Shown here: in pieces, positions 157 to 13,265 of the stretch
Layout of the letters: every line of letters starts with the position of its first letter
Position numbering within the stretch: the stretch's first letter is position 1
Assembly: GCA_023663945.1 (NCBI GenBank)
Contig: JAMPGL010000009.1
Coordinates: 1 to 64,000, forward strand
Reading direction: 5' to 3'
DNA: 64,000 bases
DNA from: Lachnospiraceae bacterium
Lineage (GTDB): Bacteria; Bacillota; Clostridia; Lachnospirales; Lachnospiraceae
Translations under genes and position numbers: made by a program
The notes under the pieces: model-generated
Seen by the model: the letters and a program-made list of their open reading frames with translations, nothing else
What the model was told of the DNA's origin: nothing
The model's database searches: none

Positions 157-1719
157 ATGGATAAAATAACAGTTGCTTTATATATGCGGCTTTCAAGGGA
201 AGATGATGATGTAAAGGACGAAAGCAACAGCATCAGCAACCAGAGGAAGCTCCTGCTGGGATTCCTGAAAAAGAAACAGGAGCTTGCAGAAATGTTTACT
301 GTCCAGTACGTGGATGACGGTTACTCAGGCACCGGGTTTGACAGACCGGGGTTTGTGGAGATGATGGACGGGGTAAAGAAAGGGAAGGTACAGTGTGTCA
401 TTGTCAAGGATTTTTCCCGGTTCGGTAGGGACTACATAGAGCTTGGCGATTATATTGAGCATATCTTTCCTTTTATGCAGGTGCGTTTTATTGCGGTCAA
501 TGATGGCTATGACAGCGAAAAGTACAGGGGAAAAACGCCGGATATTGACGTGCCTTTCCGCAACCTTGCCTATTCCCTCTACAGCCAGGATATTTCGGAC
601 AAGATAAAATCATCCCTTACGGTGCGGAGGAAAAAGGGGCTGTATATCGGTTCTATCCCGCTTTATGGCTACCAGAGGGATGAAGAGGGTTTCCTCACGC
701 CGGATGGGGAGACGGAAGGAACCGTGCAGAGGATATACAGGGAATACCTTTCCGGGACAGGGCTTGCGGAACTGGCAAGGAAGCTGAATGCGGAAGGAGT
801 ACCGTCCCCGAAACAGCACAAGATTAACAAAGGGATTTTGCATGGGAGAAAGGATAGCTCTTTTGAAGAAAAATCCATTGAAGGGAAGGAGTGTGTCTGG
901 CTTCCCACCACACTGCAGCAGATCCTGCGGAATGAAACCTATACGGGCGTGTTATTATCCGGTGCATATAAAAACGGTCCACTTGGAAGCGGAAAGCGCG
1001 TCTTTGTGCCGGAGGATGAGCGTGTCCGGGTGGAGAATGCCCATCCGCCCATCATAGATAAAGATACTTTCAGGGAAGTACAGGAGAGGATGGGAACAAA
1101 AAAGTATGGTGAAGAGAAGCAGTTTTTATTGAAAGGACTTGTGCGGTGTGGTGAGTGCGGGCGGCTCATGGTAAGGGATAAAAAGCGGTTCCGGTGCGGG
1201 TATCAGAAATTTGCTGACCACAGGAACGTAGAAAGCATTCCAGAAGCAGAACTGGAAGGGATTGTTTGGAAAGCGGTAGAGATTCAGCTGCGGTTATTGG
1301 AAGAAAAGGAAGCGGTGTTCCAGAGGGAAAAGGAACTGTGTGAAGAGAAACGCAAGAAGCTCCTTCCAGAGATAAAAAGGAAGAGGATGCAGGCGGAGAA
1401 GAAAAGGGAGGAGATCAAGCAGCTTTATCACCAGTACAGGCAGGGGAAATTGGGAAAAGCGGAGTATCTCGCAAGGAAGAGGTGGGAAGGGAATCTTGCG
1501 GAAGAGATGGAGACGGAACTGGCTGGAATGGAAGCGGAGGAAGAAGGGCTACTAAAGAGGGTAGAAGAGATTGAGACGGATAGTGTTTCTATAGTGGAAT
1601 GGCTGGGGTGCAGGGGAGATAGGAGGAAGTTGTTGCAATGCCTAATTGAGAGTGTTAATGTGTATGTAGGAAAAGAAATAGAAATGCAGTGGAGGTTTAT
1701 AGAAAAATATCATTTTTGA
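157..1719 (+). CDS. Large serine recombinase (site-specific integrase/resolvase)
   Basis: A 520-aa large serine recombinase that would catalyse integration or excision of a mobile element by a phosphoserine intermediate. The N-terminal resolvase domain (about 1-150) begins VALYMRLSRED, with S13 as the expected nucleophile. A recombinase domain follows (about 165-310). A zinc-ribbon (about 335-352) shows CGECG and a later RCGY. A charged coiled coil occupies about 370-475. The length is typical of the TnpX/TndX class. The start follows aggaggg at good spacing. Such genes usually lie at one end of their element, so the sequence right after the stop codon may be an attachment end. The neighbour downstream is much more AT-rich, which fits a junction between different DNA segments. 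The family call is firm; the element it moves is not defined here. Confidence 0.95.
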   Translation: MDKITVALYMRLSREDDDVKDESNSISNQRKLLLGFLKKKQELAEMFTVQYVDDGYSGTGFDRPGFVEMMDGVKKGKVQCVIVKDFSRFGRDYIELGDYIEHIFPFMQVRFIAVNDGYDSEKYRGKTPDIDVPFRNLAYSLYSQDISDKIKSSLTVRRKKGLYIGSIPLYGYQRDEEGFLTPDGETEGTVQRIYREYLSGTGLAELARKLNAEGVPSPKQHKINKGILHGRKDSSFEEKSIEGKECVWLPTTLQQILRNETYTGVLLSGAYKNGPLGSGKRVFVPEDERVRVENAHPPIIDKDTFREVQERMGTKKYGEEKQFLLKGLVRCGECGRLMVRDKKRFRCGYQKFADHRNVESIPEAELEGIVWKAVEIQLRLLEEKEAVFQREKELCEEKRKKLLPEIKRKRMQAEKKREEIKQLYHQYRQGKLGKAEYLARKRWEGNLAEEMETELAGMEAEEEGLLKRVEEIETDSVSIVEWLGCRGDRRKLLQCLIESVNVYVGKEIEMQWRFIEKYHF

Positions 1720-2166
1720 CACAATCTTGTAGTTCTTTTGAAAATGTGCTATTATAAAACAAAATTGATTGGTGTATAAGGGGTATAAGTAGTTTGTTAT
1801 TCGTATAATGTGTTATAAGGATGATTGTTATAAAATAGAAAAAGTTTTATGTGTATAATACCCCGCAAGAGTGTAGAGTTTGGATGGGGTATTATTTTAT
1901 TACAGCATTTAATCCAAGGTGGATTTAATTTACTTAAAATGTAATATAGTTTTAAACATAGTAACCAAATGGAGTATAACAAGATCGATAATTACTGGAT
2001 GAGTAATTTAAAATTAAAGCGTTATGATTAAGAAAGATAGTTTTCAAGGTTAATTAATTATGCATTGCCTTGTATAGCTATTAAATGCGATGGTGAGAAT
2101 TAAATCAATATTTTTATTTATAAGAAATTCTGAAAGTTAAAATGCATAAGATAGAGGAGCAGAGAT
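1716..2166. other. AT-rich intergenic region between recombinase and giant gene
   Basis: About 450 bases without a gene. It begins with TTGACACAA (1716-1724), which overlaps the recombinase stop and recurs at 10295 and 12059. It contains the 10-bp-stem hairpin at 1855-1895 and several AT-rich stretches able to act as promoters. I could not single out a convincing -35/-10 pair for the downstream operon. A short Shine-Dalgarno (gaggag) precedes the ATG at 2167. Confidence 0.5.
1855..1898 (+). terminator. Probable terminator after the recombinase
   Basis: ataatacccc (1855-1864) pairs perfectly with ggggtattat (1886-1895), followed by tttat. The lower arms resemble the aataccccg/cggggtatt hairpin at 53861-53920. 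Confidence 0.6.
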
Positions 2167-5100
2167 ATGAAGAATACAAATATTTATTTAAATTGGTATT
2201 ATGATGTTATAAACCTCGGAGTAGATACTTTGAATATTGATTTGAAGAACAAAAAAGAAATATTAGAATTACAAAATTTTTTTCTGATTTGTCAGCGGAT
2301 TAATCAAGAAGGAAATAAGCATAAACTTAATTTGAATATAACGTGCGATGAAGAAAATGTATATAGGATAAAGAGTTATTTATATATTGTAGCTAAAGAT
2401 AAAAAATTTGGTCATGTATATATTAACGGCAAGCTGTATAACAATTGGAATGATATTGGGTTTTATAGAAGAATGCCTTTATTTGTGATTGATAATGATA
2501 ATTATTTTTTCCTTAAGACAAGGGTAGGTGAACTGAAACAGAGATATGGTGCGAGATATTTTATAGAAATAGATTTATATCCAGAGGGAATCAAGGAACT
2601 TTCACCACAAGAATTATTAATCAGCATTTGTATTAATAATTTAATAGGAGAAGTTTGTCGTGGAAGTAAGAATTTTTCTAAGTTGCGAAGAGAGTATTTT
2701 AATAAAGAGCAATTTGACAAACAGATTGAAGATATGCCTTTTTTAGCACTTTTAATATTTTCCATAAGCAATAGAACAAAAAATATTGATGCTATAGAAA
2801 GTAAAAAGAAAGAAATAAAAAAACAAACAGATAATAAGAGAATTTATTTGACTCCATCCGTATGTCGAGAATTGTTTCCGACAAATGAAGATATCGAAGC
2901 AGATATTTTTAATGCATGGGATATTTCTGATGGTATATTAGAACTTTTAGAAAACATTGTTTTACATGCAAACAGGAAGTTATGCAGTGATAGGAAGAAT
3001 ATTATTAATAGTGGAGAAGGTGTTTTTGCTATGTACCTCCATAAAAATGATGTGGTTTCTGACAAAATTGATCAAGAGTTTAATTTGAATTCGGAATTGT
3101 TTCAGAGGTTTCCGCAGTACTTTCGCGGCTATATAAATGAATATAGTGATGGATTAGTTGATGAACAAAGCGAACTAAAAAAATACCAAGCTGAATTGCT
3201 TAAAAAATTAAAGAAGGGGCAATATGTAGAACGAGAGGTCTTAGAACATTACGAATTCATTAGAGGAAAAGTTGAGAAAAGAAGGAAAGAACGCCAAAAG
3301 TTTCACTATTTCTGGGAAATACAGATTGCAGATTTTTCTGGAAAGTATATGTGTGATGTTTTTAGAGAAAATTTAGTAAAGCGCAAAGATGAATTTAGTG
3401 ACCGTTTTAACGAAATGACGGTACGTTCCTTTTTTGACCCAACGAAGAAAGCTGAGTTTAGTGGAAAAACGATAGATGAAGTGAAAAGATGGGAAGAGTA
3501 TTATACAGGGACTAAAATAATAAAACATTATGGTTTGCAGATTTTTATGTCTATCATTTCGGGCAATACGGGAAGTTTTACAGTAAAAAGTTATAGCGAA
3601 GGTTCTAATGTTGAAGGTTTTTATTCTAATACAGGAGAACAGGACAAATATGTAAGCATGCTTCCAGGTACGGCATATAATATATTGCTTCCTATGAAAG
3701 CATACGGTGAAGTTGAAATAGCGCAAAATACTTTTTTGAATGCAGATATTAATTATCATTTTAGTGAACTTGATAAGTTGGAACCTCAAAAGCAAACAAA
3801 TAAGGTAATTAATGAGTTTTATTGTAAATTAAATGAGATAGTTCAAATTGAGGAAGAAAAGGAAAAAATTATTGAGAACTTAGCTGACATACTAAATCCC
3901 ATCCTTTTACAAAAGGAAATAGTTGTTTTTGACTGTTGCAACATTAAGAATGCAGTACAATTTGAACTTTTTGTAAAAACGTTAATTTTCTTAATAGCAA
4001 GCAAAGGACAAAAACAAGGATTCAATAATATTGCAGTAATTAATTGTGAAACTAATGACTTTGTGAATTTTATAAGATATTTTTCCATTTGTTATGATAA
4101 AATGGGATATTGTAAATGGATGGAAATGGAGCAGATTTATTTATGTGGAAAAAATAGCACCGAAGAATTTATTGTGTCTGGTAAAAATATTCAGGAGATG
4201 ATAGGTAGAGTGGAAAAATTGGCTTTTAGTAGACGTCTTTATCCGAAATGTATTCCTATGCTTACTCGGATGCTTAAGCGTCGAATATTACCGGATGTGA
4301 AATCTGAGAAAAATAATTTTTCATATACTCCCTTTGATTTAGTAATAAAAAATAGGAATGGAGAAACAGTATTTGAGCAAAATGTTTTAAAAGTATTAAA
4401 TCAAAATATTCAACTATTAGAAAGCGGATGTAAGATTGAACCAACACATATGAGATTGGGTTCCAAGGTTCATATTAATGCATTTTATGAAGCTGAATTA
4501 TTACTTTTTAATAATTATTATGTAAATAGATTTTCATATCTATTAGCAGAAAAAATACAAAATAAAATTAAGAATAAGAATTGCCCTATATGGTTGATTG
4601 GTTATGAAAATTATTCTGAGATGTTGATAAGTCGTTTAAAACAATATATACAGGATATAGAATTAAATAAGAAAATTCACTATTCTATTTATGAAAACTC
4701 AAGAGGAAATGGTAATAACTGGGAAGAAAATTTTAGGTATTTTCAAATCGAAACAATAAGTATGCTTGTTAGAGAAAATGCGCAAGTGTTTTTCATTGTA
4801 CCTATTAATTCAACACTGACAACATTTAATAAATTGGAATACGCAATTAAACGAAAAATGCAAGATATGGATCTGGATAATAATTTGAACATTAGCGGAT
4901 ATTTTGGTATCGTACAGATTAGGGATATAGGAAAATTAAAAGATAAAGCGTTAACTGAAATGGAAGAAAAATATTGGGAAAGCATCAATTTAGGGGATAA
5001 TTGTATTAGGAGTCCTAAATTGCTTCCGGAAGCTAATAATTGTGCCTATTATATTGTGTTGGCGAAAGCAAAGTGGGAGAATCCATTGGAATGTGAGGAA

Positions 5101-8100
5101 TGTTATCCTCAAGAATGTTTGGCTGAATTACCTTTAATAGAAACTGATAAAGCATCAGTTGTTCCAACCCAATTGATAGGATTGACAGAAAGTGTGGATA
5201 TTAACGAAACAGAGAAAATGAAATATGATTCTTATGAAAAAATTGATTCTATTAAGAAATATTTTTATTATGATCATATAGAAAGAGGTGCAAATCATTA
5301 TCACATATATGTTAGAACGGCAAATTATTATATTGAGCATGAAAATAGAATTCGCAACTGGTTAAAAGATAAGGTAAAACCACGTATAGTTTCCCAGAAA
5401 AGTGCTTCGGTTTTGACATTTGAAGTGCTTGTAAATCCATTGCACTTTAGTAATTCAGCGTTTGTGGATACAGTGAATGAAATGGTATTCAATGGAACAT
5501 CTTATTCTATGAGAATAGAAGTCGGGAAAGAATTTCGTGATAATGTTGAGACAAAATTTAGTGATCTAAAATTATTATATCAGAAGCTGATTAATATGAA
5601 AATACCAGCTGCTATTAATTTCCATTTTGTAGATGATAGCATTAATCTTGGCAATACATATATTAGAATGAAACATATGGTATCTTCGTTATTTCCGCAA
5701 GATGCAATAGCGGGACATGGAGATGTTAAAGTGACGATATTTAAAAGTGTTATTGTATTAATAAATCGTTTGTCATATGCATCAATTAGAGATTATGTTT
5801 CAGATATTCAAGATTATTTTTACTTTATAGATTTGAGAATTTCATCAATGCGTACTCATGAAGATGCTTGCTATTTATGCAAAGAAGAAAAAAATGCTGA
5901 AAAATTGATTAATTCGGCATCAACGAACCAAATGGCAAAATACTGGGAACAGCATAAAAAGAATTATCGAAAAAAATCTTTAAATGAGGCTAAAATACAT
6001 AAATTGGAAGTGGAAGTAGATAAAAAATATTACGAAAGATATTATAGAAGAATTTATTGTGCACACTACTTTAATACAGAAGTGACTGCATTGGGGATAC
6101 GGATTAATAATCCAAAAGCAGTTATGACTAAAGTAATAGAATTGATCATGAAAAAACAGAAAAGAAAAGATTTCTTGGAGTATTTGATGTCATATCTTTA
6201 TGTCTACTGTACTCCGTTTATGTCGTACCGAAAATCTATTCGCGAAAGTGCCCTTTTATTAATAATTATTTTAATGGAGGTTATAATTCAGAATGAAACA
6301 TATATGAGCCTAAAAAAAAGAGTGGAAAAAATGAAAGAGAAAGAGGAAAGAAAGGAATTAAAGGGAGATATAATTCAAGGATTAGAGATATCTAAACCAC
6401 TTATTGATAAAATTTGGAGCGATTTTCAAAATAATAGTTTTAAAAAATATGATTTGTGTAAGTTACTTATGAAATTGTCTGCTGAGTTAAAATCTAATTA
6501 CATTCTTAGAGAAGATAAAATTGAAAATATTATAAAACTTGGAGACGGAAATGAGGAAGAATTTTATATTTATTATACGGCGCTAATGAAGAAAATTCTA
6601 ACTTTAAATCCAGATGAGTCTAAAAGTGCACGATTTGACAGAATGTTGATGAGGCAGAAAATGGTCGATTTAAGACAAAATAAAAAAATATTAAAGTATA
6701 TGTATATGGAAAATACTATAGGTCTTCAAACAATAATAAAGAAAGTTCGTGATGCGGATTGGTTTGAAAGTTTTTATAATGACGAAATTTTCAAACAAAT
6801 TCTTGCGACAAGTGGTATAGAGGAGCACACGGAAGAGGAATTTATACAGAACTTGAAAGAAATGGATTTTGCTTTTACGAAAGGGATATTAGAAGATTAT
6901 TCTAATGATACAAAAAACATTCCATTTTATCAAGGACTTTGTATGAAAATTGGGAAATTGCTTATGGCGGATATTGCTTGTTGCGCTGTTAAAATGTCAG
7001 AAAAAGTATTAGTTATTGATGCTGATGATAAAGTGGTATATGATAATGAAACGACTTATAAGTTCTTTGGAGAGTATATGCGAGATTCGGGAAGTAAAGT
7101 ACCAGATAAAGCGATAATGCGGGATATGAAAGAACCACTTTTAATGGATACTTTTTATATTGATGAAAAAGAGGGAATTGCAATTGTAAAATATACAATT
7201 TTATTTGAAGAGGGTATAGAAAACAAACAGGAAGTTTATTTTGCTCTTCAGTGGTATAAATTGAACGAAGATCAAATACTCCAAAAATTGCGACTTTTGC
7301 TGATGTTTAGGGAAGAAATTTTAGGAAAGCTTTATCATGATTTTGATAATAACATAATTCAGGAATGGATAGAAAAAAATAGGACAATGGCTCAGCTGAG
7401 AAAAGCAAGATCTAGCGCACATACGAAAACAGCAGATGAGTTTGATTTATTGGATGTATGGACCTTGTCGGAAAGATTTTTGTTTGGAGATGAATCAGAG
7501 AGGAAAAAGCATTATGAAGAATACGAAAAAAAAATGATTGGCTGTCTGCTAGGGCTAATGATGAATATTCGTATCGGTAGGGCGAATGTTCTCCTGCTTT
7601 CGCAAGGAGAGTTTATTACAGAGCCTTATGAATTTGAACTTAGTTTGCGATATTTAAAAGAAGATATTTTAGTGCTTAAAAAGATATATTTTTATGACAA
7701 GCTTTTAATAATTGATTCTGATGGAAACTCGCAAGAAGAAAGTATATTTCCAGATGGAATTTATGAATGTATATTGGCGAAGGGAAAGGAAAAATTGTAC
7801 TATAATTTTAAAAATTATTTGTTATATTTTATTTTTGAGCTATTTCATAGTGCAGTCATGAATGGGAAAGAGGAAGATGGAAAAGTTAAAGTGAAAGTAT
7901 ATAATAATGAAGAATATCTTTTCTTTGAAAATCTATTAAAAGATGATTCTCAAAGAGATAATGTTATTGCTGGGTTAAGGCGTGACAGGGAAGGCATATC
8001 TTTGGCAACAATTTGTGAGTTTTTTATTTATAATTATGAAAACCGAAATGTAAAAATTGTAATAGAGCAGGAAAAGATAGCAATAGGTATCCCGATATTT

Positions 8101-8112
8101 AAAAAGCAATAA
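2167..8112 (+). CDS. Giant multidomain protein with two GHKL ATPase-like modules
   Basis: A 1981-aa protein I do not recognise as a named family. Seen: an N-terminal region (1-250) without clear motifs, then a GHKL/HATPase-like module (about 255-512). That module has an N-box ELLEN (259-263), a G1-like DFSG (389-392), YGLQI around G456, GNTG at 466 and a closing PGTAYNILLP (500-509). A segment at about 580-650 reads like a STAS-type fold (inference). At about 760-900 HINAFYEAELLLF, WLIGY and VPINSTLTTF recall phosphoribosyltransferase-like folds (weak). CYLC at 1235-1238 may bind metal. The C-terminus resembles a degenerate histidine kinase: HDFDNN at H1724, a changed N-box ELFHSA (1891-1896), GISLA (1943-1947) and a last strand IAIGIPIF. 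There are no membrane segments. A receiver-like gene and a DUF2971 gene follow in one operon. The DNA is far more AT-rich than the core genes here, which suggests transfer. A role in signalling or phage defence is inference. Confidence 0.75.
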   Translation: MKNTNIYLNWYYDVINLGVDTLNIDLKNKKEILELQNFFLICQRINQEGNKHKLNLNITCDEENVYRIKSYLYIVAKDKKFGHVYINGKLYNNWNDIGFYRRMPLFVIDNDNYFFLKTRVGELKQRYGARYFIEIDLYPEGIKELSPQELLISICINNLIGEVCRGSKNFSKLRREYFNKEQFDKQIEDMPFLALLIFSISNRTKNIDAIESKKKEIKKQTDNKRIYLTPSVCRELFPTNEDIEADIFNAWDISDGILELLENIVLHANRKLCSDRKNIINSGEGVFAMYLHKNDVVSDKIDQEFNLNSELFQRFPQYFRGYINEYSDGLVDEQSELKKYQAELLKKLKKGQYVEREVLEHYEFIRGKVEKRRKERQKFHYFWEIQIADFSGKYMCDVFRENLVKRKDEFSDRFNEMTVRSFFDPTKKAEFSGKTIDEVKRWEEYYTGTKIIKHYGLQIFMSIISGNTGSFTVKSYSEGSNVEGFYSNTGEQDKYVSMLPGTAYNILLPMKAYGEVEIAQNTFLNADINYHFSELDKLEPQKQTNKVINEFYCKLNEIVQIEEEKEKIIENLADILNPILLQKEIVVFDCCNIKNAVQFELFVKTLIFLIASKGQKQGFNNIAVINCETNDFVNFIRYFSICYDKMGYCKWMEMEQIYLCGKNSTEEFIVSGKNIQEMIGRVEKLAFSRRLYPKCIPMLTRMLKRRILPDVKSEKNNFSYTPFDLVIKNRNGETVFEQNVLKVLNQNIQLLESGCKIEPTHMRLGSKVHINAFYEAELLLFNNYYVNRFSYLLAEKIQNKIKNKNCPIWLIGYENYSEMLISRLKQYIQDIELNKKIHYSIYENSRGNGNNWEENFRYFQIETISMLVRENAQVFFIVPINSTLTTFNKLEYAIKRKMQDMDLDNNLNISGYFGIVQIRDIGKLKDKALTEMEEKYWESINLGDNCIRSPKLLPEANNCAYYIVLAKAKWENPLECEECYPQECLAELPLIETDKASVVPTQLIGLTESVDINETEKMKYDSYEKIDSIKKYFYYDHIERGANHYHIYVRTANYYIEHENRIRNWLKDKVKPRIVSQKSASVLTFEVLVNPLHFSNSAFVDTVNEMVFNGTSYSMRIEVGKEFRDNVETKFSDLKLLYQKLINMKIPAAINFHFVDDSINLGNTYIRMKHMVSSLFPQDAIAGHGDVKVTIFKSVIVLINRLSYASIRDYVSDIQDYFYFIDLRISSMRTHEDACYLCKEEKNAEKLINSASTNQMAKYWEQHKKNYRKKSLNEAKIHKLEVEVDKKYYERYYRRIYCAHYFNTEVTALGIRINNPKAVMTKVIELIMKKQKRKDFLEYLMSYLYVYCTPFMSYRKSIRESALLLIIILMEVIIQNETYMSLKKRVEKMKEKEERKELKGDIIQGLEISKPLIDKIWSDFQNNSFKKYDLCKLLMKLSAELKSNYILREDKIENIIKLGDGNEEEFYIYYTALMKKILTLNPDESKSARFDRMLMRQKMVDLRQNKKILKYMYMENTIGLQTIIKKVRDADWFESFYNDEIFKQILATSGIEEHTEEEFIQNLKEMDFAFTKGILEDYSNDTKNIPFYQGLCMKIGKLLMADIACCAVKMSEKVLVIDADDKVVYDNETTYKFFGEYMRDSGSKVPDKAIMRDMKEPLLMDTFYIDEKEGIAIVKYTILFEEGIENKQEVYFALQWYKLNEDQILQKLRLLLMFREEILGKLYHDFDNNIIQEWIEKNRTMAQLRKARSSAHTKTADEFDLLDVWTLSERFLFGDESERKKHYEEYEKKMIGCLLGLMMNIRIGRANVLLLSQGEFITEPYEFELSLRYLKEDILVLKKIYFYDKLLIIDSDGNSQEESIFPDGIYECILAKGKEKLYYNFKNYLLYFIFELFHSAVMNGKEEDGKVKVKVYNNEEYLFFENLLKDDSQRDNVIAGLRRDREGISLATICEFFIYNYENRNVKIVIEQEKIAIGIPIFKKQ

Positions 8113-8178
8113 GAGAATAGCGAAAAAGAATATTTTTATGGCATTTTATGCTGTGGGCGAAAGGAATGGATTATAAAA

Positions 8179-8787
8179 ATGAAAGTACTAAAGATTTATA
8201 TAGTTGAAGATGATATGCGAAGATATAGGACAATGGAAGCATATTTCGAGGCAGTAAAGGGAGAAGTCACATTGGGAAAAGGTGTTGGAGAGTTTTCCGA
8301 TCTTTTGAAGCGAGTAGACATTGGAGAGATTGAGATAAATCACATAAAAATTAATTCTACTCCCAGTGAAGAGCCGGATTTTATAGATTATTCTTATGAT
8401 GAGAACTTTGAGGATTATATAAAAAAAATACTGGATGACAGATCACCACGTTTTTTCTTCCTTGATTTGGCTTTGAATAAACAAGAACGTGAGATATTCA
8501 GTAGAAATGAAAATATGTTGGTTCCATATGTAGCTAGACAAATTATAAATTCAATTGGACAGAAGCAGAGCCTAAGGAAAGAACTTGTTGTTGTCAATAC
8601 AAGATGCACAAATATTTCAAGAAGTTTAGAAATGGTTTTAGATATAAAAAAATCAGTAAAGGAAAACTTAATTTTAAAAATAATTCCTGCAAATATATTT
8701 GCACCAACATATGTGCGTAAACAGAAAGATCATGTGCTTAGTGAGATTGTAAAAGATTTTTTGGAGGAGAAAAAAGAAAATGGATGA
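8179..8787 (+). CDS. Receiver-like (response regulator-type) protein
   Basis: A 202-aa protein with a CheY-like layout. IYIVEDD places the acidic pocket at E10-D11-D12. FFFLDLAL puts a candidate phospho-acceptor at D96. Later strands LVVVNTR and LKIIPA may stand for the conserved Thr/Lys positions. In ordinary receivers the acceptor lies near residue 54, so about 40 extra residues are inserted between strand 1 and strand 3. No DNA-binding output domain is present. The gene starts 66 nt after the giant GHKL gene and overlaps the DUF2971 gene by 8 nt, so the three are almost certainly co-transcribed. A plausible role is relaying a signal from the kinase-like giant protein to the DUF2971 protein; this is inference. 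The start follows aaggaatgg. Confidence 0.7.
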   Translation: MKVLKIYIVEDDMRRYRTMEAYFEAVKGEVTLGKGVGEFSDLLKRVDIGEIEINHIKINSTPSEEPDFIDYSYDENFEDYIKKILDDRSPRFFFLDLALNKQEREIFSRNENMLVPYVARQIINSIGQKQSLRKELVVVNTRCTNISRSLEMVLDIKKSVKENLILKIIPANIFAPTYVRKQKDHVLSEIVKDFLEEKKENG

Positions 8788-9967
8788 TATTCTGAAAATG
8801 TATTGGGAGCAACAGCATTATATGGATTTCTTAAGAAGAAAAATTTACAAAACGATAAAGCATGACGGGAGTCAACTTTGTGACTGTTATCATTACACAA
8901 CGTTACTTACTTTTTGGAGTTTATGTGAATCTGATTTGATGTATGCAAGACATGTGCGCTTTTCAAATGATAGTGAGGAGTATGAGTTAGGTGAAAAAAT
9001 CGTTAATAAAATTTTGGGATACAAAAATGAAGAAGAACAAGATTTTTATATGATATGTTTTTGTGAGAAGAAAAATTTATTGAGTCAATGGAGAGAATAT
9101 GCAAAGGAGGGGGTGTGTCTAGGGTTTAATCTTGATGATGAAGATTATTATACAATTCGTTGCAATGAAGAAACTCAAATAATCAATGAAAAGAGAGAAG
9201 AGTATAAGGAATATAAAGAGTACGCTATACCAGACGAGGGATGGTGTGGAGGTGAACGATGTTCTTATGCATATGCGAAGCTATTAAAGGTTTTTTATAC
9301 TGGAAAACATGATAAAACAATAAAGAAATTGTATGAAGAAATAGAGAAAATGCTGGATAATGAAGGAGAGATCCCTAAAGATAGATACATGCATTGTATG
9401 ATTCCATATATTAAAAATAAGAGTTTTAAGGAAGAAGCAGAAGCAAGACTTATTTTTCAAATAAAAAAAGACAATCAACCATATCAAGTTCATTATTTGA
9501 AAGAAGACGGGTTGCGAAAACCATATATAAAAGTGGAATTTGGGAAAATAGAGGAAAAGAAAGCCTGTAAATGTAAAATAATTTTGGATCATACAGAAGA
9601 TTTATATATTGAGTTAGAAAAACGCAAAGATGAAATGCAAAAGAAATTAAATATAGAAATTGAATATGAATCAAGAAATAAACATAATCAGCCGCAAGTT
9701 ATTATTGGATGCTGTAATAGACAGAAAGAAATTTTTGGTTATATTGATTATTGGGTGGAACGATGGAACTTTGAGCATAAAGGGAAAAAAATAAAGGTGT
9801 GGTGTAAAGGTCATTTACCTATTCGTGAAATTATGGTAGGTCCTTGTGTAAACAGGAAAGAAGTAGAAGAGGGGATTGTGCATTATATTCGTAATATATA
9901 TTGGCTTAAGTATGCTGAAGTTAAGTGTAGCAATATACCATATCGTCAAAAAAGAATAGATCGATAA
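8780..9967 (+). CDS. DUF2971 domain protein
   Basis: A 395-aa protein of the DUF2971 type. The N-terminal part shows the family pattern: CYHYTTLLTFWSL, then VRFSNDSEEYELGE, MICFCEKKNLLSQWREYA and VCLGFNLDD (about residues 33-120). The C-terminal part closes with REIMVGP and SNIPYRQ, also usual for the family. Between them is a charged helical region. No enzymatic activity is established to my knowledge for this domain. It is often found in accessory regions of bacterial genomes. Here it is the last gene of the operon with the giant GHKL protein and the receiver-like protein, which makes it the likely effector (inference). The start follows ggaggag and overlaps the upstream gene by 8 nt, suggesting translational coupling. 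Confidence 0.8.
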   Translation: MDDILKMYWEQQHYMDFLRRKIYKTIKHDGSQLCDCYHYTTLLTFWSLCESDLMYARHVRFSNDSEEYELGEKIVNKILGYKNEEEQDFYMICFCEKKNLLSQWREYAKEGVCLGFNLDDEDYYTIRCNEETQIINEKREEYKEYKEYAIPDEGWCGGERCSYAYAKLLKVFYTGKHDKTIKKLYEEIEKMLDNEGEIPKDRYMHCMIPYIKNKSFKEEAEARLIFQIKKDNQPYQVHYLKEDGLRKPYIKVEFGKIEEKKACKCKIILDHTEDLYIELEKRKDEMQKKLNIEIEYESRNKHNQPQVIIGCCNRQKEIFGYIDYWVERWNFEHKGKKIKVWCKGHLPIREIMVGPCVNRKEVEEGIVHYIRNIYWLKYAEVKCSNIPYRQKRIDR

Positions 9968-10303
9968 AAATATTAAAAAATAATATTCTTAAAAGCATAA
10001 TTCAATAAATTTATTTTATTTTTTGGAGAGGCGAACAAAGGTAAAGTATAAAGGATATCAAAAAATATATAGAATCAATAATCTTAGCTAAATGTTTTTA
10101 AAATAAACATAGGAGAGAGGGACTGATTATGTAAAAGAAAAAATGTAGGGATCTCAAATTTCAGCAAAGAAGAATTGGAACAGTTCCTTGCATGGAAAAA
10201 ATAACGAATAATATAGTTTGTAAGTTATTCTTTATAGATAAGGAATTGTTTGACGTACAGAGATATACGACAAATAATTTTTTGTGTCATTACCTTGACA
10301 CAA
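9968..10303. other. Junction region with gene debris
   Basis: A non-coding AT-rich stretch between the DUF2971 gene and the deacetylase fragment. At 10148-10204 one frame reads SNFSKEELEQFLAWKK followed by a stop, which looks like the C-terminal tail of a lost gene. The stretch ends with CTTGACACAAGCA (10294-10306), immediately where deacetylase homology begins. The same 13-mer occurs at 12058-12070 at the edge of another deacetylase fragment, so this is a probable recombination junction. Confidence 0.5.
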
Positions 10304-10759
10304 GCAGGACACGACTTGGGAAATCACAGTGAAAACCACAAAAATATGAGCCAGTTGTCGGATGATGAAAAGAAAGACGAACTGATGCAGGTACATGAGA
10401 AAGTGAGAGAACTGACCGGTTATGAGATGTTCTTGTTCCGGCCGCCTTATGGGGATTATGATAATGCGGTGGTGAATGTGGCGAAAGACTGCGGATATTA
10501 TACAATTCAATGGGATGTGGATTCTTTGGACTGGAAAGATTACGGAGTGGACTCCATCATTAAGACTGTGACGGAGCATCAGCACCTAGGAAACGGTTCC
10601 ATTATTCTTTGCCACAATGGCGCCAAATATACGGCGCAGGCGCTGGATATGCTGATTGCCAAGCTGAAAAACGAGGGCTACACCTTTGTGCCGATTTCCG
10701 AGCTGATTTATAAGGATAAATATCATATGAACCACGAGGGACGGCAGATTAAAAATTAA
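10304..10759 (+). pseudogene. Polysaccharide deacetylase, 5'-truncated
   Basis: The C-terminal part of a NodB-type polysaccharide deacetylase, a family that removes acetyl groups from peptidoglycan or other sugars outside the cell. GHDLGNHSENHKN carries motif 2 (HSxxH), FRPPYGDYD is motif 3, and ILCHNG near the end is motif 5. The N-terminal half, with motif 1 (TFDDGP) and the signal peptide, is missing. Homology begins abruptly at 10304, after DNA that encodes an unrelated peptide in the same frame. The open frame could technically start at 10250, but that product would lack a catalytic aspartate. Its last 30 codons and terminator are duplicated at 12070, and an internal part is found in diverged form at 13378. 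It looks like a host gene broken by integration of the upstream AT-rich segment. Confidence 0.8.
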
Positions 10760-11116: not shown

Positions 11117-11404
11117 ATGAATGATACTAGATATTTCAAAGAACTACATGATAATGAAGAAATAGACTTCATGGAGGCGGAGAATAGATATAGAAATGCA
11201 AATTATTTAATGACAAATACCAGGTCAAAAGATGGAACTATTTATGGAATAGTTCGCGCAATTTCTACAGATCCAACCACTTTAAGTATGCTAATAGCAT
11301 TAGAAGATGAATTTCAGGCAAAGAATATACCAACATTAATTGGCGGTGAATATTCCAATTCACAGTTCGATGATCTTGAGATGTTAAAGTTTGAAAGGAT
11401 TTAG
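11117..11404 (+). CDS. Small hypothetical protein paired with a retropepsin-like gene
   Basis: A 95-aa acidic protein with no signal peptide or membrane segment and no motif I can name. It begins MNDTRYFKELHDNEEIDF and contains IYGIVRAISTDPTTLSMLIALEDEF. It is immediately followed by a retropepsin-like protease gene whose ribosome binding site lies inside this gene's last codons, so the two are translationally linked. A second pair of small ORF plus protease lies at 12541-13265, which suggests that the arrangement is a functional unit. The function is unknown. It could be a partner, a substrate or an inhibitor of the protease. Confidence 0.7.
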   Translation: MNDTRYFKELHDNEEIDFMEAENRYRNANYLMTNTRSKDGTIYGIVRAISTDPTTLSMLIALEDEFQAKNIPTLIGGEYSNSQFDDLEMLKFERI

Positions 11405-11405
11405 C

Positions 11406-11978
11406 ATGGATAAAGCAACAGTCAGGATACCAGATGGCAGAAAATTCAAATTAGCATGCGAAATTCAAGCCCAAATACCTAAAAAGTTAAAATATGGGTT
11501 TGAAAGGACAGATGTAAAAAGACACAAAATATTTAAGTATGATACGGGAGCACAATTTACTTGTTTACCAGCAAAAGACCTTGGCATAGACATTAGCGAA
11601 GAAGATTTTATTTCTTATAATAAGGGTGGCTTAGCCGTAAAGGGAACAGGTATAGATAAGAGCACCCAAATAACGTATTATCTTATACAGGTAGATAATT
11701 TTATTGTTGCAGACATTGAACTTGGAAGCGTTCCAATATATATAACATTTGATTTGAGAGCAACAAAAAGATTATTAGGCATGGATATAATAAGGCTCTT
11801 AAACGTGGAAATTAATTTTGATAAAAATGAAGCAATATTTCATACAACAGAAAAATTCCGAAATTTTAAAAAGAGAAAACTCAGGCTTGAAATTAGAGAT
11901 ATGTTTGAAATAGGAATTTACAGTAAAAATGATTTTGAAAATGATATTGACTGGCAAAGCATGTTAGAAGAAAAATAA
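11406..11978 (+). CDS. Retropepsin-like aspartic protease
   Basis: A 190-aa protein with the aspartyl protease signature YDTGAQFTCLP (D46 as catalytic residue) and the closing pattern RLLGMDIIRLLNVEINFD found near the end of retropepsin folds. Only one DTG motif is present, so an active enzyme would need to dimerise, as retroviral proteases do. There is no signal peptide, so it is probably cytoplasmic. The ATG at 11406 was chosen over an upstream TTG because gaaagga sits 6 nt before it. It forms a two-gene unit with the 95-aa ORF just upstream. Its C-terminal 35 residues are basic, then acidic, and are not part of the protease core. The substrate is unknown. Confidence 0.7.
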   Translation: MDKATVRIPDGRKFKLACEIQAQIPKKLKYGFERTDVKRHKIFKYDTGAQFTCLPAKDLGIDISEEDFISYNKGGLAVKGTGIDKSTQITYYLIQVDNFIVADIELGSVPIYITFDLRATKRLLGMDIIRLLNVEINFDKNEAIFHTTEKFRNFKKRKLRLEIRDMFEIGIYSKNDFENDIDWQSMLEEK

Positions 11979-12057
11979 AAAATATAGTTGAGAATACCCC
12001 TGTCAGGTGTCCTTTTTAGTTTTAAAATCCAATAAAATACTAAATTTTTATGCAGGA

Positions 12058-12160
12058 CTTGACACAAGCAAACGAGGGCTACACCTTTGTGCCGATTTCC
12101 GAGCTGATTCATAAGGATAAATATCATATGAACCACGAGGGACGGCAGATTAAAAATTAA
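12058..12160 (+). pseudogene. Polysaccharide deacetylase 3' tail, second copy
   Basis: Only the last about 30 codons (GYTFVPISEL to the stop at 12158-12160) are present. They are preceded directly by CTTGACACAAGCA (12058-12070), the same 13-mer that precedes the truncated copy at 10304. It is clearly a scar and not a gene. Confidence 0.85.
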
Positions 12161-12278
12161 ATCCGGGAAATGTAAAACATTGAAAATCCGCAGCTTCTGA
12201 TAAAACGAAGGGCGGATTTTTCATTGAGGCGTATTGTTATCCGTCTTTTTACAAACAATTCTGTAACAGGCGTAATCA
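12070..12278 (+). repeat. Direct repeat copy 2 (deacetylase tail plus terminator)
   Basis: About 96% identical to 10669-10878. It separates the first retropepsin cassette from the second. The region 11979-12361 holds this repeat and a TATAAT (12318-12323), and no other gene. Confidence 0.9.
12183..12221 (+). terminator. Terminator, second copy
   Basis: aaaatccgc (12183-12191) pairs with gcggatttt (12212-12220), followed by t. It is a copy of the hairpin at 10782. Confidence 0.7.
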
Positions 12279-12361
12279 GCAATAAAAACGATGGATATTA
12301 AGTAGAATTAGTGGTATTATAATATTGCAAGCATCATTTTGATAGTGAAAAGAGCAGTCTT

Positions 12362-12523
12362 ATGAAGTTAGAGGAAAGAAGTAGACCAGATATGATGGAA
12401 TCTGACAGCAGACTTTTTGAAGAGCTGGATAAAGGAATAAATTCCATGGAGAATGGCTGCACGATGTCATGTGATAAAGCTATGCAGATGATACGGGAGA
12501 AATTAAAGGAGTATGCAATATAG
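12362..12523 (+). CDS. Small antitoxin-like protein
   Basis: A 53-aa ORF too short for most gene callers. The peptide begins MKLEERSRPDMM and continues ELDKGINSMENG, then SCDKAMQMIREKL. The second half resembles the common tail of small type II antitoxins, where a variable linker precedes a hinge and a short helix ending in IREKL/IRERL. No toxin gene follows; the next gene, 17 nt downstream, is the small partner of a retropepsin-like protease. It could be an orphan antitoxin left after cassette decay. Confidence is modest because of its length. Confidence 0.45.
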   Translation: MKLEERSRPDMMESDSRLFEELDKGINSMENGCTMSCDKAMQMIREKLKEYAI

Positions 12524-12540
12524 TACAAAGAGGTGAAACT

Positions 12541-12777
12541 ATGGCAGAGCGGTTGACCAGAAAACAAATGGCAGAAAAATATCCAAATACTTGGCTGGGA
12601 ATAAACAACGTTGAATATAAAAATAACGATGGTATTTCTATGTTATCAGCTGATGTAGTTTACACTGATAAAACAGATTATGAATTACTTAAAATGCAAA
12701 TAGCTGGTACAGATGGAATAATTGCATGGTACACGAATGAAAATGCTTTGCCATTAGGTGTAGCGGGGGTATTATAA
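12541..12777 (+). CDS. Small hypothetical protein paired with a second retropepsin-like gene
   Basis: A 78-aa protein starting MAERLTRKQMAEKYPNTWLG, with a later VVYTDKTDYELLKMQIAG. The KYPNTWLGI segment resembles small proteins that often sit directly upstream of clostridial aspartyl protease-like genes (recollection, unverified). Its stop codon overlaps the protease ATG by one base, so the two are translationally coupled. It does not look similar in sequence to the 95-aa partner at 11117, although the position is equivalent. The start follows agaggtg. Confidence 0.7.
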   Translation: MAERLTRKQMAEKYPNTWLGINNVEYKNNDGISMLSADVVYTDKTDYELLKMQIAGTDGIIAWYTNENALPLGVAGVL

Positions 12778-13265
12778 TGCAAATAACAATACAATTAGAT
12801 GATGAAGCAAGACGCCCAATAGCAAAAATAGATTGGTTTCATGGCTGTCGCGCTTTGATAGATACTGGCGCACTTTTTCCAATCTGGAGTATAAATGAAG
12901 ATATACTTATAGAAGAGCTGGGCGCTGTACTCATCAAAAAGAATGTAACATTTGGCGGCTTTGGCGGTGAAGCACAAGGTAATTTGTATAAAGTCAATTT
13001 TGAATTAAATGGTATGCGCTACATAGATATGCCGATCGTGGCAAGTAAACTGATCAATGCAGGCTGGCATATGATTTTGTCAGCGACAATGTTTGATGGT
13101 ATGATATACGAAATTGACACAGTAAATAAAAAGTTAAACATAGATACAAAAGATAACCAATCTGTGCGGATATTAAGACTGTCAGATGACAATAATAACA
13201 TGTCAGTATATTTGGCAGGCACATTTAAAACGCAAGAAGAATATTACAATAACAAAAATTTATAG
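12777..13265 (+). CDS. Retropepsin-like aspartic protease, second module
   Basis: A 162-aa protein with the signature ALIDTGALFPIW (D29 catalytic) and a flap-like glycine-rich FGGFGGEAQG. The C-terminal half contains MILSATMFDGMIYEIDTVN, corresponding to the L-G-x-D-x-L region of retropepsins but with S/T in place of the usual Gly. One DTG motif per chain implies dimerisation if active. There is no secretion signal. It overlaps the 78-aa gene by one base. It is a diverged counterpart of the protease at 11406, and the two modules are separated by a deacetylase-tail repeat. Confidence 0.65.
   Translation: MQITIQLDDEARRPIAKIDWFHGCRALIDTGALFPIWSINEDILIEELGAVLIKKNVTFGGFGGEAQGNLYKVNFELNGMRYIDMPIVASKLINAGWHMILSATMFDGMIYEIDTVNKKLNIDTKDNQSVRILRLSDDNNNMSVYLAGTFKTQEEYYNNKNL

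Follow-up and report, generated by a model that had tools for sequence, protein, structure and literature searches.

A conserved three-gene operon encoding a giant putative histidine kinase, a receiver-like protein and a DUF2971 protein: a candidate immune signalling system on mobile DNA of a Lachnospiraceae bacterium

The current study concerns a 64,000-nucleotide stretch of DNA from a Lachnospiraceae bacterium (assembly GCA_023663945.1, contig JAMPGL010000009.1), hereafter the window, which covers the initial 64 kb of a contig of 86.8 kb in a 3.7-Mb genome, and in particular an operon encoding a protein of 1981 amino acid (aa) residues (the giant), a stand-alone receiver-like protein and a DUF2971 protein. 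Based on computational analysis, we conclude that this trio of genes forms a genuine, conserved system that is mobile in the window, follows the logic of a kinase, a relay and an output, and has exchangeable outputs. We assign a probability of approximately 0.55 to the proposal that it constitutes a cytoplasmic sensor-relay-effector system which works like two-component immune signalling.

Results

The initial annotation described three tightly packed, AT-rich genes, and their coordinates (Table 1), a 66-nt gap between the giant and receiver-like genes, an 8-nt overlap between the latter and the DUF2971 gene (all open reading frames (ORFs) being on the forward strand) and their low GC content were all reproduced; the GC content is 27–32% over window positions 2–10 kb, and past 16 kb, 39 of the 48 blocks of 1 kb each lie at 44–55%. 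The placement of the trio between a large serine recombinase and a broken host gene also stands, with Pfam hits to Recombinase/Resolvase in the 520-aa protein upstream and to Polysacc_deac_1 in the 5′-truncated polysaccharide deacetylase gene downstream. The third product is a DUF2971 protein by the Pfam gathering cut-off (PF11185, 26.6 versus 22 bits), while no Pfam or NCBIfam score of the giant or the receiver-like protein reached its cut-off and PADLOC models returned no family for any of the three proteins at E up to 5.

Scans for the giant, in each of which the window's own genome counts among the positives, yielded 7 positive genomes out of 299 at the family level, 2 out of 391 at the class level and 4 out of 344 at the order level; the order was scanned with a profile, and one of its four matches (G899) covers 32 residues and has no ORF. 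A GTDB scan yielded 26 named loci, of which 22 bear Bacillota names (chiefly Lachnospiraceae), one is unassigned and the remaining three derive from Gastranaerophilales, Cloacimonadota and Arcobacter, respectively. No relative was found in IMG/VR or in plasmid and phage collections. Following removal of G899, contig fragments L049 and L050, and same-contig repeats (L009–L011, L013, L015 and L048), 30 separate loci remained, the window included. The downstream sequence could be assessed in 28 of these, as L026 and L051 run into the edge of their contigs; the near-copies L042 and L043 were both counted.

In 25 of these 28 loci the giant gene is directly followed by the receiver-like gene and the DUF2971 gene, a recurrence that exceeds chance; the median gap is −4 nt at the first junction (measured in 24 loci) and +3 nt at the second (25 loci). 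The genes thus stay together, as the initial annotation had suggested should be examined, and the giant matched no housekeeping or phage structural family, for which reason its interpretation as such a protein was dropped. Some copies are interrupted: DUF2971 is split into two ORFs in L028 and L032, as is the giant in L041 and L044; two neighbouring genes encode the giant in L036, its ORFs in L039 and L040 start near the core, and in L029 a broken giant is followed by a transposase-like gene and then by the receiver and DUF2971. For L024, L029 and L039, motif and position served to identify the receiver. Pairwise distances of the giant core, receiver and DUF2971 proteins correlate (Mantel r of 0.87, 0.83 and 0.83, p 1e-4) across 21 of the 25 loci, namely those in which every one of the three proteins could be used (L028, L029, L032 and L044 were left out). 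In the core tree, the Gastranaerophilales and Cloacimonadota rows are nested among Bacillota (support 100/99 and 97/95), as may be expected from horizontal transfer, though bins can be contaminated.

As judged from sequence, the outputs are exchangeable behind one sensor, as three loci retain the sensor but have another output. L012 and L045, which form one clade (100/99), contain neither receiver nor DUF2971 and instead carry a metallophosphoesterase, which in L012 is fused to the giant (of nine giant rows, one, identified by its motif as L012, matches Pfam Metallophos at 3.9e-11) and in L045 is the next gene (4.6e-7). In the Arcobacter locus (L047), whose giant is distant, shorter and partly masked, a kinase-like gene stands separately; the locus further contains a gene for a receiver-like protein (Response_reg 0.058) and, as output, one for a 150-aa protein that is membrane-like by sequence.

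The description of the first gene as a kinase- or GHKL-like sensor gains support from profile-profile comparison of both its GHKL domains with 30 histidine-kinase ATPase domains of the window's own genome (hhalign probability 85.7, E 5e-6, for the N-terminal domain and 55, E 1e-4, for the C-terminal one), control profiles of receivers and phosphoribosyltransferases (PRTases) giving 0.3 or less. On the predicted structure, the C-terminus of the giant is a histidine kinase with DHp and ATPase domains and a BceS-like fold, its phosphorylation being putative. The conserved, putatively phosphorylatable histidine of two-component systems is present as His1752, which is kept in all 26 kinase-type proteins examined and lost in both receiver-less loci (L012 and L045).

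Between the GHKL domains, domain A has the predicted fold of a type I PRTase, with putative catalysis, and displays a conserved IVPI-x-STL-x-T stretch in place of the motif VDD-x4-G-x-T of domain B. The latter resembles a phosphoribosyl pyrophosphate (PRPP) loop, with D1156 and G1162 in 27 of 27 sequences; this motif, weak Pfam matches (PRTase-CE 0.21 and PRTase_2 0.25, two of 20 such matches) and the order of strands and helices suggest that domain B is PRTase-like and putatively binds PRPP. A comparison of both central domains with seven PRTases of the same genome using hhalign gave no signal, the predicted fold later proving positive for domain A. Profile searches of PDB sequences returned nothing at E ≤ 1 for the giant and nothing at E ≤ 10 for its PRTase region. 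The possibility that the PRTase domain is itself a PRPP-depleting effector was dropped, though conceivable, because this domain belongs to the shared sensor while the outputs vary around it.

As regards the second gene, the receiver-like character noted previously holds for its key residues, as the initial E/D/N-D and the acceptor Asp (D96) are each present in 26 of 27 rows, whereas a receiver fold is only probable, the scores against true receivers being weak. The best Pfam Response_reg score among the 27 proteins is 0.058, a weak match. In a PDB profile search, NF4 scored 0.008 and was followed by response regulators, which made up six of ten rows, at weak E of 0.12–0.51. The receiver hidden Markov model scores the 27 rows above 540 shuffles (p 5e-5), although the 27 are relatives of one another and the highest-scoring shuffle comes close to the highest-scoring row. 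In L033 (14123–14617), the receiver possesses neither the acidic nor the acceptor Asp, the rest of the operon being in place. Residues 79–198 (window 8413–8772) display a sub-threshold NCBIfam match to anti-phage GapS4a (E 0.0015, 17.8 bits versus a cut-off of 270).

The best fold match of the predicted DUF2971 structure is DarT, at 8–11% identity, which is suggestive of a DarT-like fold, and the protein is probably an ADP-ribosyltransferase. The sensor-relay-effector layout first proposed is supported, and may be sharpened to a histidine kinase, a receiver-like relay and a probable ADP-ribosyltransferase. DUF2971 is the only Pfam domain above cut-off in the output protein, a PDB profile search retrieved only two unrelated chains (0.58 and 1.4), and no relative emerged from Foldseek against viral models at E ≤ 0.001 or from an IMG/VR scan. 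No DNA-binding domain is among the hits of the receiver or output proteins. The MIF/tautomerase-like stretch (window 9566–9814) is partly gapped in the alignment of shorter relatives.

Of 200 genomes of the family, 37 contain the DUF2971 domain, which is also used without the giant sensor, as 20 DUF2971 regions elsewhere were all devoid, at E ≤ 1, of both the giant's core and the present receiver. Four of four other DUF2971 proteins scanned match PADLOC PDC-S31, a PDC-S label which we take to denote a single-gene phage-defence candidate, whereas the window protein matches no PADLOC model. Elsewhere, 19 nt separate a DUF2971 gene from the Tmn-like (YobI-ATPase) NTPase gene that precedes it, and these two may form a defence system (L194, 205–4687); another DUF2971 gene directly follows type I methylase and specificity genes (L192, 797–4733); the domain also lies towards the C-terminus of a 722-aa protein with an AAA ATPase gene nearby (L181, 3579–5747) and of an 825-aa protein with TPR repeats (L182, 1889–4366).

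Location on mobile DNA was borne out for the window copy by comparison with the elements and sites of genomes G985, G991 and G986. The deacetylase gene is uninterrupted (286 aa) in G986, and the match starts at window 10303–10304 in 12 of 14 other genomes of the same genus searched, some matches being paralogues. Insertions at this point are present in G991 and G985; they share the window element's end, TTGTGTCATTACCTTGACACAA, and contain three serine recombinase genes, the third being the counterpart of the window recombinase. In G991 both deacetylase halves were found, the third recombinase runs straight to the element end and the operon is absent, other genes being located at the left side. 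In G985, for which a left end was not found, the operon's place is taken by two different genes, for proteins of 183 and 889 aa (L148, 14390–14941 and 15151–17820); these products gave no Pfam match at 0.01 and no PADLOC match at 1e-5. The window element's left end lies off the contig. The cargo slot extends from the end of the third recombinase to the inverted repeat, bounded in the window by repeated TGACACAA. Since the G991 element lacks the operon and the G985 slot holds other genes, these sequences identify the window operon as optional cargo at a hot spot.

With regard to the proposed location in defence islands, strong PADLOC neighbours are present in at least 5 of 25 loci, namely HEC-02A (L026), AbiH and PDC-M38 (L031), HEC-01 (L032), PDC-S20 (L033) and BREX (L036). 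These calls derive from ten proteins picked by eye from the flanks plus 145 of 153 flank ORFs (among the best 25 of 184 families), five from the window, two from L045 and one from L046 being left out. A small control also contained defence genes, so the statistical claim of a defence-island gene was dropped and no significance is claimed. We infer an immune function from indirect evidence, i.e. patchy occurrence, cargo status, output swapping and the DUF2971 genes beside Tmn-like or type I genes.

Discussion

In the mechanism that we favour, the GHKL and PRTase domains would sense disturbed nucleotide or PRPP pools or a product of the invader, thereby releasing autophosphorylation of His1752; the phosphate would move to Asp96 of the receiver, which would switch on, or let go of, the DUF2971 enzyme, and ADP-ribosylation of nucleic acid or protein by the latter would stop growth through abortive infection or phage restriction. 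Tentatively, and at less than even odds, the trio may represent a new phosphorelay immune family with a giant cytoplasmic kinase, twin PRTase-like domains, a GHKL gate, a bare receiver and exchangeable toxic outputs; the giant would read the nucleotide or PRPP state via its twin PRTase-like domains, and the outputs would comprise a DarT-like ADP-ribosyltransferase, a metallophosphoesterase and a membrane protein. If this is true, bacterial immune signalling gains a two-component phosphorelay with a sensor resembling metabolic enzymes, the DUF2971 domain of unknown function gains an enzymatic hypothesis, and outputs are seen to be swapped behind a single sensor. His1752, Asp96 and NAD-dependent activity are steps that are each directly testable.

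Certain observations weigh against immune signalling by phosphorelay. Pfam detects neither GHKL domain in the nine giant-family members scanned, the receiver-like profile scores true receivers no better than PRTases (hhalign probability 2.5 versus 2.7 for the PRTase control), and the L033 receiver is devoid of both Asp residues. These points would suit a giant acting as an ATP-driven conformational machine, with the receiver-like protein as a phosphate-free adaptor, yet the retention of His1752 in all kinase-type proteins, its loss in the two receiver-less loci and the BceS-like predicted fold render this reading unlikely. Defence-island enrichment is not significant, given that BrxL, AbiEi/AbiEii, LmuA and others were likewise present (among the best 25 of 103 families) in the control, which comprised 103 ORFs on 13 stretches in seven of the same genomes. 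This, along with the PRTase fold and the second PRTase-like domain, would be compatible with a metabolic two-component system that balances nucleotides or PRPP and has no role in conflict. Such a system is improbable in view of the patchy occurrence among genomes, the mobile cargo status in the window, the lack of DNA-binding domains among receiver and output hits, and the association of DUF2971 with Tmn-like and restriction-modification genes. It is also rather doubtful that the operon is an addiction (toxin-antitoxin-like) module, in which the receiver and giant would hold a DUF2971 toxin in check and loss of the element would be punished. In the window, a recombinase element does carry the operon as cargo, and DarT, the best fold match, is the toxin of a toxin-antitoxin pair, but a 1981-aa kinase with PRTase domains far exceeds an antidote, inspection by eye shows a recombinase in few of the flanks listed for the other loci, and the output changes in three loci while the sensor stays.

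Detocs is a two-component anti-phage system with a sensor histidine kinase, a stand-alone receiver and a toxic output in one operon, the output protein having its own receiver domain and a nucleosidase. The trio shares the arrangement in one operon of a sensor histidine kinase, a stand-alone receiver-like protein and a proposed toxic output; it differs in that its sensor contains GHKL plus PRTase domains and its output, a DUF2971, metallophosphoesterase or membrane-like protein rather than a nucleosidase, has no recognisable receiver domain. With Detocs so composed, the trio is not a member. Among the open-access papers searched, none combined Detocs with receiver and histidine kinase. Although DarT is the best fold match of the DUF2971 protein, the latter departs from DarTG in its low identity, its MIF-like stretch and its presumed regulation through a receiver, and no DarG macrodomain is among the Pfam hits of the window trio, the nine giant rows or, for the 27 receivers, 25 of 26 families. 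In comparison with BceS-type histidine kinases, the giant has the DHp and ATPase fold with the His at a near-equivalent place, but its kinase module is fused to PRTase and GHKL domains and the trio's receiver carries no DNA-binding output.

Related domains are known in other anti-phage proteins, i.e. metallophosphatase domains in DS-8 and DS-9 (extracts of PMC13092281) and a GHKL domain in VcSduA (extracts of PMC12137116). In the work on DefensePredictor (PMC13092281), HATPase and REC are named by the legend of Fig. 6F as domains of systems that are predicted but untested; by this legend, these may or may not include the present trio. Among the open-access papers searched, DUF2971 turned up in one, a genome reannotation, and never with phage, PRTase-CE gave nothing, and titles and opening lines of abstracts revealed no matching system.

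Other features of the window

Table 1. Features of the operon and of the element that carries it (window coordinates unless indicated).
Feature	Position	Strand	Basis or remark
Giant sensor kinase, 1981 aa	2167..8112	+	ORF; homologues in 29 further separate loci
N-terminal GHKL ATPase-like domain, residues about 245–515 (N263, D389, G456, T502)	2899..3711	+	hhalign, conservation
PRTase-fold domain A, residues about 755–970 (model began at 782)	4429..5076	+	Predicted fold
PRTase-like domain B, residues about 1016–1222	5212..5832	+	Motif conservation, weak Pfam hits, strand/helix order
GAF-like domain (putative), residues about 1585–1695	6919..7251	+	Secondary-structure order only
Histidine-kinase module (DHp + ATPase), residues 1747–1981; His1752 at 7420–7422, N1922	7405..8109	+	
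Stand-alone receiver-like protein, 202 aa	8179..8787	+	D11 (8209–8211), D96 (8464–8466)
DUF2971 protein, 395 aa, probable effector; DarT-like ADP-ribosyltransferase fold (suggestive)	8780..9967	+	
MIF/tautomerase-like stretch, DUF2971 protein residues 263–345	9566..9814	+	
Large serine recombinase, 520 aa	157..1719	+	Pfam Recombinase 2.2e-23, Resolvase 4e-16
TGACACAA at recombinase stop	1717..1724	+	Same 8-mer again at 10296–10303, the element's right end
Element right end, inverted repeat TTGTGTCA-6-TGACACAA	10282..10303	.	Identical in G985 and G991 elements
3′ part of interrupted host polysaccharide deacetylase gene	10304..10759	+	Pfam Polysacc_deac_1 2e-17
Corresponding element sites	1717–1724 and 10296–10303; L148 17857; L149 17454 (reverse strand)		

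Downstream of the element, window positions 11391–13265 contain small genes with weak similarity to aspartyl proteases, present in two copies.
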